Positions 25,583-38,925 of a stretch of DNA of 64,000 bases are shown one piece after another (position 1 is the stretch's first letter; every line of letters begins with the position of its first letter). A program made the translations under genes and the position numbers. This DNA is from Truepera radiovictrix DSM 17093 (GTDB lineage Bacteria; Deinococcota; Deinococci; Deinococcales; Trueperaceae). The DNA lies in contig NC_014221.1 in NCBI RefSeq assembly GCF_000092425.1, forward strand, positions 1,493,001 to 1,557,000, in the 5' to 3' direction. The notes below the pieces were generated by a model that saw nothing but the letters and a program-made list of their open reading frames with translations, made no database searches and had not been told where the DNA came from.

Positions 25583-28987
<3,405 letters not shown>

Positions 28988-29019
28988 CGTGACCTCGGGT
29001 GGGATACTGGTAGCGGGGT

Positions 29020-31002
29020 TTAGACGGCGCGCCCGCGCGCCGCGTAGTCGTCGTCGCCGCGCGGCGAGAGCCTGAGGATGTGCGCGGGGAGGTGGTGGGG
29101 GTCGAGCTGCACGAAGTTGCGCCTGCCCTCCCAGGTGTAGCGCTCATCGGTCAGGAGGTCGTGCGCGACGAACGGTTCGTGCTCGGAGAGCTCGAGGGCG
29201 CCTAGGTCGAGCTCGACGAAACCCGCCTGGGTGTGCTGGTCGTCTAGGTTGACGACGACCAGGATGCGGTTGTCACCCTCGCGCTTCGAGTAGGCCAACA
29301 GCTGGTCGTTCTCAAGGCGGTGAAAGCGCAACGAACGGTTGCCGTGCAGCGCGGGGTTCTCCGCGCGGATGGCGTTGACGCGGGTAATGAGCGGCTTGAG
29401 CGAGTTCGGGTCCTCTAGGTTCCACCGCTTGAGCTCGTACTTCTCGTTGTTTTTGTTCTCCTCGCGCAGCTCGTGAGGCTCGTTGTCCATGAGCTCAAAC
29501 GCCGGCCCGTAAAGGCCGTACGACGAGGACATCGTCGCCGCCATGACCAGCCGCGCCTGAAACGAGGCTCTGCTCCTCAAGTAGGGCGGCAGGATGTCGG
29601 GCGTGTTCGGCCAGAACGAGGGGCGGTAGAACTCGGCGACCTCGGTGTGAAAGAGCTCAGTAAGGTACTCCTCGAAGTCCCACTTGCTGTAGCGCCAGGT
29701 GAAGTAGGTGTACGACTGCGAAAAGCCGAGCTTGGCGAGCGCGTACATCTGTTTGGGACGGGTAAAGGCTTCGGACAAAAAGATGAGGTCGGGGTAGTCT
29801 TGCCGAAGCGAGGCGAAGCACCACCCCCAGAAGGGGAGCGCTTTGGTGTGCGGGTTGTCGACCCTAAAGGTTCTGACCCCGCGCTCGGCCCAAAAGGCCA
29901 CCACGCTCCGGAGCTCTTGCCAGAGGTTTTTCCAGTCGGCCGACTCGAAGTCGATGGGGTAGATGTCCTGGTACTTTTTGGGCGGGTTTTCGGCGTAGCG
30001 AATCGAGCCGTCCGGGCGCTGCCGGAACCAGTCGGGGTGCTCTTTGACGTAGGGGTGGTCGGGGGAGCACTGGTAGGCGAGGTCGAGGGCGACCTCGAGC
30101 CCGAGCTCCTTGGCGCGCGCCATAAAGCGGTCGAACGCCTCTAGGCCCCCTAGCTCCGGATGCACCGCTTTGTGGCCGCCCTCCTCGCTGCCGATGGCCC
30201 AAGGTGAGCCGGGTTCGCCGGGCCCCGCCGTCGGGCTGTTGTCCTTGCCCTTGCGGAACGAGCGGCCAATCGGGTGAATGGGCGGCAAGTAGACGATGTC
30301 GAAACCCATCTCCTTGACGTAGTCGAGGTGCCTAGCGGCGTCGTCGAGGGTGCCGTGCGCGCCGTCTGGACCGAACGAGCGCGGGAAAAACTCGTACCAC
30401 GAGCTAAACTGCGCGAGCGGCCGCTCGACCAGGATCTCTAAAGGTTCGCTCTCGGCCGCCCCCTCGCGCGGGTCGTAGACGCTCGCGAGGCGCGTCACCT
30501 CGGGCTCCAGAGCCGCTCCGTGCTCACCCGCCTCGAAGCGCCCAATAAAGGCCTGCAGCGCCCTTTTGTCCTCGCCCTTGGCTTTGCGCGCGGCTTTTTG
30601 GAGGAGAGCGGCGCCCTCGAGCAGTTCGCTCCTCAGCTCCGCCTCGTCGCTGCCGGCGTCCACGCGGCGTTTAAAGATGGCCTGCCAGGTGGCGAACATG
30701 TCCACCCACGCGCGTACGCGGTAGCGCATCATGCCCACGCCGGAAGCCGTGAAGCAGCCCTCGTAGACGTCGTTGCCGACGTGCTTGAGGCGCACGGCCT
30801 CTTCGGCGCTCTTGGGCGCGCCCTTGGGGCCAAACAGCACCTCGGCGGCGACGGTTTCGTGACCGTCGGCGACGATATCGGCGCTTACCGCGACCGCCTC
30901 GCCGGTAATGCGTTTGATGGGGAAGCGGCCGCCGTCGACGCTCGGGCGCACGGCCAGGATGAGCGCTCGCGACCACTTTTTGGGGAGCTCGGGAGAGATC
31001 AT
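29020..31002 (-). CDS. glgE: GlgE, maltose-1-phosphate maltosyltransferase
   Basis: A 660-aa GH13_3 enzyme that extends alpha-1,4-glucans with maltose-1-phosphate. Diagnostic segments are the N-terminal sandwich domain, YLPPIHPIGRSFRKGKDN, the nucleophile in TFRVDNPHTKALPFWGW, and the acid/base in FLSEAFTRPKQM. I used ATG 31002 because MISPELPKKWSRALILAVRPSVDGG is the family N-terminus and a TATAGT box sits 6 nt before it; the frame is open further upstream without signals. With TreS-Mak it forms the trehalose-to-glucan route. The branching enzyme GlgB is not in the window. Confidence 0.94.
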   Translation of the reverse strand: MISPELPKKWSRALILAVRPSVDGGRFPIKRITGEAVAVSADIVADGHETVAAEVLFGPKGAPKSAEEAVRLKHVGNDVYEGCFTASGVGMMRYRVRAWVDMFATWQAIFKRRVDAGSDEAELRSELLEGAALLQKAARKAKGEDKRALQAFIGRFEAGEHGAALEPEVTRLASVYDPREGAAESEPLEILVERPLAQFSSWYEFFPRSFGPDGAHGTLDDAARHLDYVKEMGFDIVYLPPIHPIGRSFRKGKDNSPTAGPGEPGSPWAIGSEEGGHKAVHPELGGLEAFDRFMARAKELGLEVALDLAYQCSPDHPYVKEHPDWFRQRPDGSIRYAENPPKKYQDIYPIDFESADWKNLWQELRSVVAFWAERGVRTFRVDNPHTKALPFWGWCFASLRQDYPDLIFLSEAFTRPKQMYALAKLGFSQSYTYFTWRYSKWDFEEYLTELFHTEVAEFYRPSFWPNTPDILPPYLRSRASFQARLVMAATMSSSYGLYGPAFELMDNEPHELREENKNNEKYELKRWNLEDPNSLKPLITRVNAIRAENPALHGNRSLRFHRLENDQLLAYSKREGDNRILVVVNLDDQHTQAGFVELDLGALELSEHEPFVAHDLLTDERYTWEGRRNFVQLDPHHLPAHILRLSPRGDDDYAARGRAV

Positions 31003-31008
31003 GGTTTC

Positions 31009-31014
31009 ACTATA
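31009..31014 (-). promoter_or_regulatory. -10 box of glgE (leaderless type)
   Basis: TATAGT on the minus strand, 6 nt before ATG 31002, no ribosome-binding site between. Confidence 0.55.
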
Positions 31015-31329
31015 CCTGTGGGCCCTTCGCAACGTTACCGCCCCCTTGGGCCCACCGTAGGGGCTTTGAGCTATGAGCCCCTGTCGCGCCGCAACCTCGC
31101 CACGCCCTCTCGGACGATGCCGAGAGGTCCTGAAGCTCTGCCGGGCGCGCGTACGCCACACCCCGCTACCGCTACAGGTCCGGTCTGCAGGAGGCTCCAG
31201 ACGGCGCGCATAGGGCGACTGCGCGTGGTGGCGCGTGTGCGTTCCTCGCGGCGAAAGCCGGGGGCGCGTCTGGCCGGCTCCGGCTTTCGCAAGGGCTCTG
31301 CGGGAGACGAGGGTGCAGAGGCTTACCCT
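31015..31329. other. Non-coding interval upstream of glgE
   Basis: 315 bases without a credible gene. It separates two minus-strand units (the dehydrogenase end and glgE). A CGGCTTTCGC/GGCTTTCGC-type sequence near 31282-31292 and GCGGCGAAAGCCG near 31250-31262 could pair weakly. Nothing else is supported. Confidence 0.45.
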
Positions 31330-33029: not shown

Positions 33030-33585
33030 AGGTTGAAACCACCGCCTTTAGGCGGTCAGATTTCATCTGCTAGCCTTGGCGGATGGAGTATCGCTATGGC
33101 AGCCATACCGTCTTCAACATCGAGTACCACTTTGTGTGGGTCACGAAGTACCGCTACAAGGTGCTGAAAGGGGACATAGCCGAGCGTGTTAGGGAGTTGG
33201 TGCGGCAAACCTGCGAGGCGTTCGAGATACGGATTCTGAGCGGAGTGGTGAGTAGCGACCACGTGCATATTCTGGTGAGTGCGCCGCCGACAATGGCGCC
33301 GAGTGAGATCATGCGGCGGATCAAAGGGCGAAGTGCGAGCAAGCTATTCGAGGAGTATCCGAAGCTAAAAGCACGTTATTGGGGGCGGCACTTTTGGGCT
33401 AGAGGGTACTTCTGTGCGACGGTGGGGCAAGTCACGGAAGAGATGATCAAGAGCTACCTGGAGCATCACTTCGAGCCGACCCGAGAGGACAACTTCAGGA
33501 CAGAGGACTGACGGGTCTATGACCCGTATCCCGACTTTCAGTCGCTCTTTCAAACCCTCCGACTTTAGTCGGTGGTTGTTTAGTT
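33030..33585 (+). mobile_element. IS200-type element (tnpA only)
   Basis: About 550 bp with a single Y1 transposase. Subterminal hairpins that TnpA would recognise flank it: ACCGCC-TTTA-GGCGGT at 33041-33056 and CCGAC-TTTA-GTCGG at 33559-33572, sharing the TTTA loop. No tnpB follows. Exact ends cannot be fixed without a second copy, because the family makes no target duplication. Confidence 0.82.
33083..33511 (+). CDS. IS200/IS605-family transposase TnpA
   Basis: A 142-aa HUH single-strand transposase of normal length. The HUH motif is HVHIL (about residues 57-61, in GVVSSDHVHILVSA), and the nucleophilic Tyr is in EEMIKSYLEHHF near the C-terminus. FNIEYHFVWVTKYRYKVL is the family N-terminus. 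The catalytic residues are intact, so it may be active. Confidence 0.93.
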   Translation: MEYRYGSHTVFNIEYHFVWVTKYRYKVLKGDIAERVRELVRQTCEAFEIRILSGVVSSDHVHILVSAPPTMAPSEIMRRIKGRSASKLFEEYPKLKARYWGRHFWARGYFCATVGQVTEEMIKSYLEHHFEPTREDNFRTED

Positions 33586-34650: not shown

Positions 34651-35500
34651 GCGCCCGGGCGTCCTGCCGGGGGCTTTGAAGCTTTGCGCCGCTCAGGCGG
34701 TACGAAGGCGAGCGCCCGCTTATGGGGCGCGGCTCAAGGCAACCGCAAGCGCCTTTTGTCTACCTCGAGTCGGACGACAAGGCCGATGATCTAGACGACG
34801 CGCACTCTCGCCAAACCGGGGCTGGCGAACCGGGCGCAGGTCGTGCGCTGGGCGCTCGAGCGGGGCTTGCGTCGCCCGAGTGCCGCGGTCAAGGGCTAAC
34901 TGGACAAAACCGAATGGCTGCGAACAACGTGGGGTTCCCACACGCCCCGCGCGCTGGGGGTGCAGCGGGCGGGGCGTGCACTTTATGGGGCTCCACTCGT
35001 GACAGTTCGTCTCGGAAGGATAGACTTGTTGCCGCTACACGTGCCGACGGTGCAGGCTGACCAAGCTGTTTGGGCGATGCTTGGGCCGTTCGCGCGCAAG
35101 GTGAAAGCGCCGTCGGCAGTTGCCTGGAACGTTTGTTCCGAACCTCTTCCACGTTTGCCATGTCACGCTTAAGGACCCGCTTCTACAAGAGCGCTTGCAC
35201 AAGCACAACGGTGCTGACCGAGCGACGTTTTGCGTCGAAGCAGCAACGGGTTTGTCGAGCGCCGAGTGACTCCAGTAAGCTTGCGCAGCCGCCTCGCCCA
35301 ACAGTTCAGAAGGACGCCTGTTATGGAGGTTGATGTACTGTAGACGGTAGTGCAAGTAGGACTTCTCGGTGCTGCAACCCAGACGCCTAACGCGGATGGT
35401 CTGTCTAACCGTGTTAAGGAAAGGAAAGGTCTTTGTTGAATAACCTATACCTCTTTAGCATGCTCACTTCAAACCCATCAAGCGTGGTGAAATCGCCCAT
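34651..35500. other. Degenerate interval between tetR and the cassette array
   Basis: 850 bases with no intact gene and a fall in GC toward the right. It holds an antitoxin-like remnant (34795-34899), a 10-bp inverted repeat (34941-34950 with 34969-34978), a minus-strand open stretch at about 35230-35350 whose NLHNRRPSELLG segment is faintly integrase-core-like, and RYYYAAC-type heptamers GCCTAAC (35385-35391) and GTCTAAC (35402-35408) that could be worn att-site halves. Confidence 0.4.
34795..34899 (+). pseudogene. Antitoxin-like remnant
   Basis: A 34-codon fragment, in frame after a TAG at 34792, reading LAKPGLANRAQVVRWALERGLRR and ending at TAA 34897. It resembles the helix-turn-helix part of ribbon-helix-helix antitoxins. 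No start or partner toxin is left. Confidence 0.25.
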
Positions 35501-35550: not shown

Positions 35551-35632
35551 ACGGTGACCGGAGTGTTGGGCGTCATTGCGTGAACACAAGCGTTATTACG
35601 CTAAGATGAAGGTCGATTAACAGGAAAGCAAA

Positions 35633-37336
35633 TTGCACAGTTACGAGCACAAGAAGCTGACTGAGGTAATCACTAGGCTCGACGAAGTGCCGGCGGATTC
35701 TAAACTCTTTTCCGAGTGGATACAGGCCGAGGCACATCTTGACTTCCTACGTAGAAACGCCCGTGCTGATGAACTGGTCATTTATGCGTCGGGTGAATAC
35801 ACGTTCATCCACTCCGTAGCCGTTCCGAGTGAGCGGCTCGAGCCTTCTGACCAGCAAGACCTGATGCAATGGAGTTTCAACCCTTACACGTCAATCGCCA
35901 GCTATGTAACCGGGGGTGGGCGCGAGGACGTTTGGGTTGAACGCGGCTTAAGCGGGACAGGCACCAAAACTCTGGAGAACGCCATGCAATTGATCTTCGG
36001 CCGGACTTTTGAAGGCTGGACTGGGCCGGGCCGCACCTACTACGAACTCCACCAAGAATATGCACATCTCACAGGCATCCATTGGCGTCCCGAAAAGCGG
36101 GCCTACTGCCGCTTCAATGAACACGGCGACCTTGAGCCCGTTGTTTCCGTGACCAGCCGCGAGGACAAGGGTAGCAACATAGACCTCGTCTCCTTCAAGT
36201 GGGAGCCGCTGGAAGAGTACCTTGCGGCGTCCAATGCCTCACTCGTAAGGATGTTTGATTTCACGTTGCTGCGACGCTCCGGGTTTTCTGGCTGGTCAGA
36301 CGAGCCGACGCAGGAAATCATCGAATCGCCAGACTTCTTCTACCGCCAGAAAGTCATGCCCGGCTATGCGGCCTACACGCGAGGCGTCCAGATCATCCGC
36401 CCTCGTCGTACTCTGGAAGCTATCTTCACGGATATGACGGACAGATGGTTCGGAAGGAGTAACAAGCAGTACGTCGAGTTCATCGCCTACGATTGGCGCA
36501 ATAAGCGCGTGACGAGAATCTCCACCGACCCTGCGGCCACGACGAACTATTTTCAGGCCAAAGAAAATGCGCTGCCGTTCGAAGTATCGCCTGCGTTCTT
36601 CCGGCCGGAGGTTCTGCTGAAGTACAAGATGGATCGTGACAAGTACACAGTGAGCGACCGTGATGTCTCATGCCGGGCAGGGTGGCACCTTCCAGCAATC
36701 GACGTCAACGAAGCGGGTCAAGTACACGCTTACATCTGCTACTTGCGCCGCCTTCCGTACGAGGAGCAGTTGCACTGGCTCTCCTACAACGAGCCGCCGA
36801 AAGCCAGTATCTCCGAACGCGCCTTCATCAATGATTTCAAGGGCGAGTTTGTGAACTTCGTACAGCCGCTGCAGAAGGTCCTGTCTATCGTGCGGCGCTG
36901 GCACGATGACAAGGTTGTATGGTGGACGCTTCGGGATGAGAAGCTGCTTGAGCGTGTGAATACACCTCTAACGGAGAGTCGCGATGAATGGGCTGAGGCA
37001 TTCATGGACCTTGCAAAGTTGGTTATCGAGGGCTTTGAAACAAAAGAGATCCGAGCCCGACTCGATAAAGCGCAAGTTCCATACGAAATGGAAGACAAGA
37101 CGATCGCGTTGCTCGAAAAGCTTTTGAGTAAGACCGGAACAGGGGTTGAGAAGCTGGCCGGCTTGCGAACAGTCCAGCTCTTGCGCTCAAAAGCCAAGGG
37201 GCATGCGGGCGGCAGTGGGGCCCACCAGTTGGCTCAGGATGCTTTGACCGAGCATGAATCCTTTGCTAGTCACTTTCAGCATGTTTGCTTACAAGTCGCT
37301 GACGAGCTTGAGAGCATAGAAACGTGGATGCCATAG
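35633..37336 (+). CDS. Cassette-borne protein of unknown function, 567 aa
   Basis: I do not recognise this family. It is soluble, with no signal peptide or membrane segment. Residues 1-330 are mixed and aromatic-rich (QWSFNPYTSIASY, GRTYYELHQEYAHLTGIHWRP), and the C-terminal third is helical. Near the end, LLRSKAKGHAGG (517-526) followed by LTEHESFASHF recalls the basic/His region of HEPN-like RNases, but that is only a resemblance. It starts at TTG 35633 behind AGGAAAG. GC is visibly lower than in flanking genes, and it fills cassette 1 of the array, ending 4 bp before the attC zone. Phage defence or another adaptive role is a guess from the setting. Confidence 0.8.
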   Translation: MHSYEHKKLTEVITRLDEVPADSKLFSEWIQAEAHLDFLRRNARADELVIYASGEYTFIHSVAVPSERLEPSDQQDLMQWSFNPYTSIASYVTGGGREDVWVERGLSGTGTKTLENAMQLIFGRTFEGWTGPGRTYYELHQEYAHLTGIHWRPEKRAYCRFNEHGDLEPVVSVTSREDKGSNIDLVSFKWEPLEEYLAASNASLVRMFDFTLLRRSGFSGWSDEPTQEIIESPDFFYRQKVMPGYAAYTRGVQIIRPRRTLEAIFTDMTDRWFGRSNKQYVEFIAYDWRNKRVTRISTDPAATTNYFQAKENALPFEVSPAFFRPEVLLKYKMDRDKYTVSDRDVSCRAGWHLPAIDVNEAGQVHAYICYLRRLPYEEQLHWLSYNEPPKASISERAFINDFKGEFVNFVQPLQKVLSIVRRWHDDKVVWWTLRDEKLLERVNTPLTESRDEWAEAFMDLAKLVIEGFETKEIRARLDKAQVPYEMEDKTIALLEKLLSKTGTGVEKLAGLRTVQLLRSKAKGHAGGSGAHQLAQDALTEHESFASHFQHVCLQVADELESIETWMP

Positions 37337-37340
37337 TGGA

Positions 37341-37420
37341 TTGCCGCCCAACAAGACGCTCCACCTGACTGCCATTCCGTTGCGCTACATGGCGCCGGGT
37401 GAGTTTTGTCGTTATGTGCC
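37341..37420 (+). repeat. attC-like site 1
   Basis: R'' GCCCAAC (37346-37352), then an L'' region CGCTCCACCTGAC, a central stem GCCAT/ATGGC, L' GGTGAG and R' GTTATGT (37411-37417). CACC/GGTG and AAC/GTT pair. Its last ten bases GTTATGTGCC are exactly complementary to the R'' start of attC 2. Confidence 0.7.
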
Positions 37421-37456
37421 TTCGCGTACCATGACTGTACCGGGCTAAAAACGGAG

Positions 37457-37462
37457 TAAACT
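37457..37462 (+). promoter_or_regulatory. -10 box of the DUF2442 gene (leaderless type)
   Basis: TAAACT 6 nt before ATG 37469, within cassette 2, so this cassette carries its own promoter. Confidence 0.5.
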
Positions 37463-37468
37463 AATCGT

Positions 37469-37762
37469 ATGAGCGTCATTGCCAACCTCATCGAGGTCAG
37501 AGCACTCCCTGACTACAAGCTTTGGCTGCACTATGACGACGGTGTGGTGGGCGAAGTCGACCTCTCTCAGCTTGTAGGCAAGGGTGTCTTTAAACTCTGG
37601 AACGACTATCGCAGGTTTGAGCAGGTTGTCATTGGGCCTCACGGTGAGCTTGCCTGGGGTGATGACATCGATCTGTGTGCCGATGCCCTTTACCTGGAGC
37701 TCAGCGGCAAACGACCGGAAGAGGTTTTCGCAAGCCTGAGAACTGAACACGTGGATGCCTGA
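37469..37762 (+). CDS. DUF2442-type protein, partner of DUF4160
   Basis: A 97-aa protein, ALPDYKLWLHYDDGVVGEVDLSQLVGKGVFKLW being the core of the DUF2442 fold. DUF2442 and DUF4160 genes are commonly found as adjacent pairs in either order and are suspected toxin-antitoxin-like modules; the activity is not established. It overlaps the DUF4160 gene by 8 bp. It lies in cassette 2 with its own -10 box. Confidence 0.85.
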   Translation: MSVIANLIEVRALPDYKLWLHYDDGVVGEVDLSQLVGKGVFKLWNDYRRFEQVVIGPHGELAWGDDIDLCADALYLELSGKRPEEVFASLRTEHVDA

Positions 37763-38015
37763 GATAAGCCGCTTCTACGGCATCATCATCAAGATGTACT
37801 TTAACGACCATACGCCACCTCACTTCCACGCCTTCTACGGTGATCATGAAGCGCTCATCAATATTGCGACGCTGGCGGTGATCGCAGGCAAACTGCCGCC
37901 CAGAGCCCTGGGATTAGTTACAGAGTGGGCGGCTCTTCACCAGGACGAGCTTTTGGCGACGTGGGAACGGGCGCGAAAGGCTGAGCCTCTTGTTAAGATC
38001 GCCCCACTACCGTGA
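37755..38015 (+). CDS. DUF4160-type protein
   Basis: An 86-aa protein with the family signature: FYGIIIKMYFNDHTPPHFHAFYGDHEALINI, then LPPRALGLVTEWAALHQDELLATWERA. The HxxPHFHA-type histidines are conserved and might bind metal. It starts inside the DUF2442 gene and ends 7 bp before attC 2. Toxin-antitoxin function is suspected for the pair but unproven. Confidence 0.88.
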   Translation: MPEISRFYGIIIKMYFNDHTPPHFHAFYGDHEALINIATLAVIAGKLPPRALGLVTEWAALHQDELLATWERARKAEPLVKIAPLP

Positions 38016-38021
38016 TGGAAC

Positions 38022-38132
38022 GGCACATAACCAGCGTTTGCAGCCGACTTCTCGGTGTCTTCTGTGACCGAGCGCTCCCTTTCCGCTATCCTTGACAGAG
38101 GGGCGACTGAAACGCAGACCGTTAGCTGGCAC
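38022..38132 (+). repeat. attC-like site 2
   Basis: The best site. R'' GGCACATAAC (38022-38031) is the exact complement of the start of its own cassette at 37411. L'' GCGTTT(G)CAGCCG (38034-38046) pairs with L' CGACTGAAACGC (38104-38115) with one unpaired G, the extrahelical base typical of attC, and one mismatch. R' is GTTAGCT (38121-38127). Confidence 0.8.
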
Positions 38133-38183
38133 TGCTGCTGAGAGCATCGGTCCTATAACGCTTGACGTTTAACATGCCTCGTT

Positions 38184-38477
38184 ATGATCCGGATTGTGAT
38201 CAAGTCCTTCAGGGATCAGGAAGCCCAAAAGGTCTTCTCCCGCCAGCGCTCGCGGAAACTCCCGCAGGACATTCAACAAGTCGCCTATCGAAAGCTTCGC
38301 ATGCTTAGCAACGCCCAAACGCTTGCTGACCTACGTATCCCCCCTGCCAACCGACTCGAAAAGCTAAGTGGTAACCGAGCAGGAGAGTACAGCATCCGCA
38401 TCAACGATCAGTGGCGTATCTGCTTTGAGTGGCATGACGGTGACGCTTACAACGTTGAAATTGTGGATTATCATTAG
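38184..38477 (+). CDS. higB: HigB-type RelE-superfamily toxin
   Basis: A 97-aa toxin: IKSFRDQEAQKVFSRQRSRKLPQDIQQVAYRKLRMLSNA, then LRIPPANRLEKLSGNRAGEYSIRINDQWRICFEW, the HigB core with Arg, Lys and the final aromatic residues for ribosome-dependent mRNA cleavage. As in other HigBA systems the toxin gene is first. The antitoxin starts 15 bp later. It is cargo of cassette 3. Confidence 0.93.
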   Translation: MIRIVIKSFRDQEAQKVFSRQRSRKLPQDIQQVAYRKLRMLSNAQTLADLRIPPANRLEKLSGNRAGEYSIRINDQWRICFEWHDGDAYNVEIVDYH

Positions 38478-38492
38478 CGAAAGGAGGCAGCC

Positions 38493-38801
38493 ATGAGTGA
38501 AGAAAAGCTCGCACCTGTACATCCTGGCGAGGTCCTCTTAGAGGAGTTTTTGAAGCCTATGGAGATCAGCCAGAATCGCCTGGCGCTCAGTATCGGCGTG
38601 CCGGCGCGGCGGATCAACGAGATCGTTCTCGGTAAGCGCGGTATCACCGCGGATACTGCGTTGAGACTTGCCCGCTTTTTTGGGACGTCGCCTCAGTTCT
38701 GGCTGGGGCTCCAGACGGATTATGACCTCGATGTGACGTTAGACATGCTTGGTGACAGGCTCGAGCGCGAAGTACACGCTGTTCACGCAAGTCACGGATA
38801 A
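38493..38801 (+). CDS. higA: HigA-type antitoxin
   Basis: A 102-aa XRE-type antitoxin: VHPGEVLLEEFLKPMEISQNRLALSIGVPARRINEIVLGKRGITADTALRLARFFGTSPQFWLGLQ, the classic HigA helix-turn-helix. A strong AAAGGAGG precedes ATG 38493. It partners HigB and would autoregulate the pair. It stops 2 bp before attC 3, as cassette genes usually do. Confidence 0.94.
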   Translation: MSEEKLAPVHPGEVLLEEFLKPMEISQNRLALSIGVPARRINEIVLGKRGITADTALRLARFFGTSPQFWLGLQTDYDLDVTLDMLGDRLEREVHAVHASHG

Positions 38802-38803
38802 AC

Positions 38804-38925
38804 GCGCCGGCTAACTACACGCTGCAGGGGGACACAGCCGCGCGTCGCCCGAACTTTGTCGTGGACCCAGGGATACCCCGGTTTATCCGTCTAGGCTGCG
38901 CCCCTGAGCTTATACGTTGGGCAGA
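38804..38925 (+). repeat. attC-like site 3
   Basis: R'' GGCTAAC, with GCGCCGGCTAAC (38804-38815) complementary at 10 of 12 positions to the cassette 3 start GTTAGCTGGCAC (38121). L'' GCT(G)CAGGGG (38821-38830) pairs perfectly with L' CCCCTGAGC (38901-38909) with an extrahelical G. R' is GTTGGGC (38916-38922). Confidence 0.8.

Follow-up and report, generated by a model that had tools for sequence, protein, structure and literature searches.

Integron remnant and cassette array

The window analyzed here, a 64,000-nucleotide stretch of the Truepera radiovictrix DSM 17093 chromosome (a single contig of 3,260,398 bp), contains an N-terminal remnant of an integron integrase (IntI) on the minus strand at 35194–35421 (chromosomal position 1528194–1528421). 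In a profile search of the genome, the remnant matched residues 1–76 of TIGR02249 with an E-value of 1.4e-8 and 35 bits, a score under the curated cut-off, and the reading frames indicate that the rest of IntI has been lost or frameshifted. It adjoins, and is divergent from, three tandem plus-strand gene cassettes bounded by core/attC pairs. Cassette 1 (35565–37410, 1846 bp), the first after the remnant, begins with the core GTTGGGC at 35565, which is complementary to GCCCAAC at 37346 at 7/7 positions; its attC site, recognized by core boxes and a stem, spans 37346–37417 on the plus strand. Between the core and the gene lies a leader (35565–35632, plus strand) with an AGGAAA ribosome-binding-like sequence before the TTG start, and an alignment with L003, L004, L005, and L011 showed that this leader is partly common to cassettes in other phyla. 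Cassette 2 (37411–38120, plus strand) carries a DhiA/DhiT-like toxin-antitoxin pair (DUF2442, 37469–37762; DUF4160, 37755–38015), and its core GTTATGT (37411) pairs exactly with ACATAAC (38025). Cassette 3 (38121–38915, plus strand) carries a HigBA toxin-antitoxin pair (HigB-like, 38184–38477; HigA, 38493–38801), with a 6/7 match between GTTAGCT (38121) and GGCTAAC (38809), and the array ends with GTTGGGC at 38916. The integron is degenerate; since the genome search yielded no complete integron integrase, the array is probably no longer mobile from its present site. The literature searched made no mention of Truepera together with an integron. By eye, an ORF for an IS200/IS605-type TnpA-like transposase (33083–33511, plus strand) was seen upstream of the integron remnant, and large minus-strand ORFs at 25583–31161 resemble a trehalose synthase-maltokinase fusion and a GlgE-like maltosyltransferase.

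The single gene of cassette 1, P0001 (35633–37336, plus strand, 567 codons), is a candidate single-protein defence gene. A previous sequence-only reading had described it as a TTG-initiated gene of unrecognised family, carried by a mobile cassette of unusual size and deviating in GC content from its neighbours. The TTG start, the cassette, its size, and the GC deviation agree with the present data: the core/attC boundaries and the adjoining IntI remnant identify the cassette, which is large at about 1.85 kb, and the gene has a GC content of 54.9%, compared with 67.1% for the window and 65–72% for the flanks. A review describes integron-borne defence systems as streamlined for size (PMC12409362), and the large cassette is in line with that statement. 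The same reading had called P0001 the largest gene in the window, which does not hold, as ORFs of 1134, 713, 686, and 673 aa are larger, several of them with recognisable products. No model in Pfam, NCBIfam, or PADLOC matched P0001, PHROG gave no strong match, and a comparison with PDB chain sequences gave no significant match. A housekeeping enzyme was rejected because nothing was found in Pfam, NCBIfam, PADLOC, or the PDB sequences, and a phage structural gene was rejected because there was no match among 50,697 phage records. On the basis of the family searches and the full-length model, residues 1–404 (35633–36844, plus strand) form an N-terminal region without a recognised domain, for which a sensor role is proposed, and the AlphaFold2 model delimits a C-terminal helical, HEPN-like domain at residues 405–567 (36845–37333, plus strand).

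Close relatives and transfer between phyla

A scan of 84,980 species genomes detected ten relatives of P0001, including nine near full length that share 66–87% identity with it and one fragment at a contig end. TTG is the start codon in eight of the ten, and L003 and L010 start with ATG. The MAGs carrying close relatives are labelled Nitrospira, Acidobacteriota, Deltaproteobacteria, Proteobacteria, Planctomycetes, and Chloroflexi; a search of 110 other genomes from the phylum of T. radiovictrix yielded none. Individual MAG contigs may be misbinned; the copy in the window sits in a complete chromosome. Several close relatives are carried as cassettes, and a similar attC-like sequence lies downstream of the gene in L002, L003, L005, and L006. 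Its presence in MAGs from several phyla indicates that the cassette was mobile in the past. The dN/dS ratio of P0001 is 0.13 against L007 and 0.15–0.19 against those copies from other phyla for which dS is unsaturated. The ORF is real and under purifying selection, and its cassette has been transferred between phyla under that selection. The literature searched made no mention of the accessions of relatives.

Upstream of the Nitrospira copy, an ORF (L002:6283–7038) ends in a C-terminal remnant of an integron integrase, which suggests that this copy, too, may be part of a decayed integron. In a deltaproteobacterial MAG (L004:990–6512), the gene is interrupted after residue 548; transposase-like ORFs follow, and a match to its last 27 residues occurs beyond them at a distance of about 3.8 kb.

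Distant relatives and their genomic contexts

More distant relatives, with 15–32% identity, were found on plasmids of Pseudomonas, Rhodococcus, and Streptomyces, in other genomes, and in viral contigs. On a Pseudomonas aeruginosa plasmid, one small gene separates the relative from a downstream CBASS locus with SAVED, nucleotidyltransferase, ThiF, and Mov34/JAB genes, which is interrupted by an IS3 element. The Pseudomonas syringae relative is located directly 3′ of gmtX in a Gamma-Mobile-Trio island. Neighbours of relatives further include proteins similar to Avs2 (E-value 4e-98), SoFic (3e-119), DrmMI (4e-66), HEC-03B (2e-130), PDC-M68B (4e-107), and type I restriction proteins (2e-171). At an E-value of 1e-20, 69 PADLOC families were matched among 111 neighbours, compared with 14 among 108 controls from arbitrary regions; many families match the same few proteins, and the enrichment over the control is modest. 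The defence neighbours were therefore weighed by the quality of single matches, and six loci have clear defence systems nearby. The neighbours of several distant relatives look like ordinary chromosome. A relative in G344 (L043:8308–10021) is split into two overlapping frames.

P2-like prophages in 11 of 5,426 Escherichia coli genomes carry a relative (WP_052318713.1; L099:9004–10635) as a single gene on the opposite strand between the baseplate V and virion-morphogenesis genes, and further relatives belong to Mu-like prophages or have phage-type integrases next to them. P2-like phages have been described as possessing defence hotspots between conserved genes (Rousset et al., PMC9122126). The look at homologue contexts that the sequence-only reading had proposed also speaks for its guess of a HEPN-like RNase: homologues occupy cassettes and defence loci as well as prophages and further mobile elements, with no one conserved chromosomal setting. 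P0001 might instead be an accessory metabolic or regulatory gene that has no role in conflict and travels on mobile elements by chance, as most integron cassettes are of unknown function and about 10% of the tested Vibrio cholerae cassettes gave phage protection (PMC12409362). We regard this as very unlikely, because relatives keep turning up next to CBASS, Avs2-like, DISARM-like, and restriction genes and as one-gene inserts in prophages.

The C-terminal domain

When 16 homologues with 15–87% identity, none of which has a Pfam or PADLOC match, were aligned with L-INS-i, only ten columns proved strictly invariant. Two of these are R518 and H524, which form the motif RSKAKGH (37184–37204, plus strand), an Rx5H variant of Rx4-6H; the spacing between R and H is x5 in most homologues and x4 in the L047–L051 group. 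An Rx4-6H pair would be expected in about 0.06% of random draws of ten positions from P0001. Rx4-6H is the defining motif of HEPN RNases, in which a polar residue usually follows the R and an acidic residue usually lies upstream (PMC3710099); R518 and H524 correspond to the residues given there as the RNase site. In the alignment, 12 of 16 sequences have S, T, or N directly after R518, and four have the hydrophobic V or L. The position of Glu466 (37028–37030, plus strand) is Asp or Glu in 16/16 homologues; the basic residue near it is at x4 (K471) and is not universal, compared with Ex3[KR] in typical HEPN proteins. The AlphaFold2 model of the isolated C-terminal domain is helical and confident (pLDDT 83, pTM 0.80); R518 lies close to where one helix ends, and H524 follows immediately beyond that helix. 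In the full-length model, pLDDT is below 50 for residues 1–409, and a fold reading of the whole protein was set aside because the N-terminal confidence was too low to interpret.

Foldseek against the PDB returned no significant match (E-values of 0.19 and above). The top weak match of the full-length model was the MNT-HEPN toxin 7ae6 (probability 0.63). For the isolated domain, MNT-HEPN toxins made up about one-fifth of the top 50 matches (6m6w, probability 0.69), and vinculin tails scored as well as the HEPN toxins. We therefore treat a HEPN assignment of the C-terminal domain as likely only. Comparison with a viral structure library gave nothing meaningful. The hhalign comparisons with our own HepT, Abi_C, and PhoU alignments, some segments of which were badly cut, were uninformative, as the two HEPN families HepT and Abi_C did not match each other either. 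Divergent HEPN families often lack a profile match to the known HEPN families.

The sequence-only reading had compared the helical end of the protein to HEPN-like RNases, citing two stretches, LLRSKAKGHAGG and HESFASHF. Both are present in P0001, although HESFASHF is kept only among close relatives. The reading pointed to the right region, which is helical and contains the Rx5H motif with its invariant R and H; with no significant fold match, no recognition by family libraries, and only a modest PADLOC enrichment, the HEPN assignment itself is partly supported. The protein could also serve defence through a C-terminal domain that is not HEPN, with R518 and H524 being structural or ligand-binding and the effector residing in the N-terminal 400 residues. 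The missing fold match and the further invariant residues in the N-terminal region, W382, N386, and P389, are compatible with such an arrangement, but the invariant Rx4-6H pair with its upstream acidic residue constitutes the HEPN signature and HEPN toxins recur in the weak fold matches, so that we consider it unlikely.

Proposed function

Taken together, P0001 is rather probably a stand-alone abortive-infection protein against phages that combines an N-terminal sensor with a HEPN-type RNase and has spread as a cassette. As the cassette holds no second gene and the prophage insertion consists of one gene, a single protein should provide both sensor and effector. The N-terminal part of about 400 residues may hold P0001 off and detect a product of infection, whereupon the helical domain at the C-terminus would act as a metal-independent HEPN-type RNase in which R518 and H524, aided by the acidic residue 466, may cut cellular or phage RNA, and this cutting would stop growth ahead of phage release. 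The broader proposal, to which we assign about an even chance, is that P0001 represents a widespread single-protein defence family that has not been described before and that pairs an N-terminal sensor of a new kind with a divergent HEPN RNase; the family would have moved between phyla as an integron cassette and elsewhere have P2-like and Mu-like prophages, Gamma-Mobile-Trio islands, and plasmids as its carriers.

Alternatively, P0001 could be a HEPN-type RNase that acts in stress dormancy or stabilises the element instead of defending against phages. The two neighbouring cassettes, 2 and 3, carry toxin-antitoxin pairs, and a role in stress dormancy was proposed for integron-cassette HEPN proteins in 2013 (PMC3710099). 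However, neither cassette 1 nor the P2 prophage copy contains an antitoxin gene, and several neighbouring defence genes and the recurrent positions as prophage cargo agree better with defence, which makes this explanation fairly unlikely. If the defence reading is true, P0001 would bring to light a compact defence family absent from current catalogues. It would also show that a large one-protein system can travel on integron cassettes far outside Vibrio and the clinical integrons, and its relative in the E. coli prophage would offer a testable route to the trigger.

Comparison with known systems

Like the HEPN RNases HepT/MNT-HEPN toxin, RNase LS, RloC, PrrC, and ApeA, P0001 has a helical domain at its C-terminus with an invariant Rx4-6H and an acidic residue upstream of it, and its family occurs in defence and mobile contexts. 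Unlike these members of the superfamily, it shows no detectable profile similarity and has a long N-terminal region without a recognised domain, and its cassette encodes no partner antitoxin or nucleotidyltransferase. A HEPN-type domain has also been proposed in an integron cassette family of Gammaproteobacteria (PDB 3jrt; PMC3710099). In contrast to that family, P0001 occurs in several phyla and has a large extra region, and the lack of a significant match to any PDB chain indicates that the two families are separate. DS-11 is a validated one-protein defence system composed of CBS and HEPN, in which defence depends on the catalytic residues of the HEPN effector (PMC13092281). P0001 is likewise a single protein with a presumed sensor and a putative HEPN effector, although no CBS or other known domain was detected in it. 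Integrons are known reservoirs of defence genes (PMC12409362). P0001 differs from the phage-resistance cassettes of Vibrio and mobile integrons in its Deinococcota host, the dead integrase, the unusually large cassette, and a family absent from PADLOC-DB; like them, it is a gene carried as a cassette, with defence as its candidate role.
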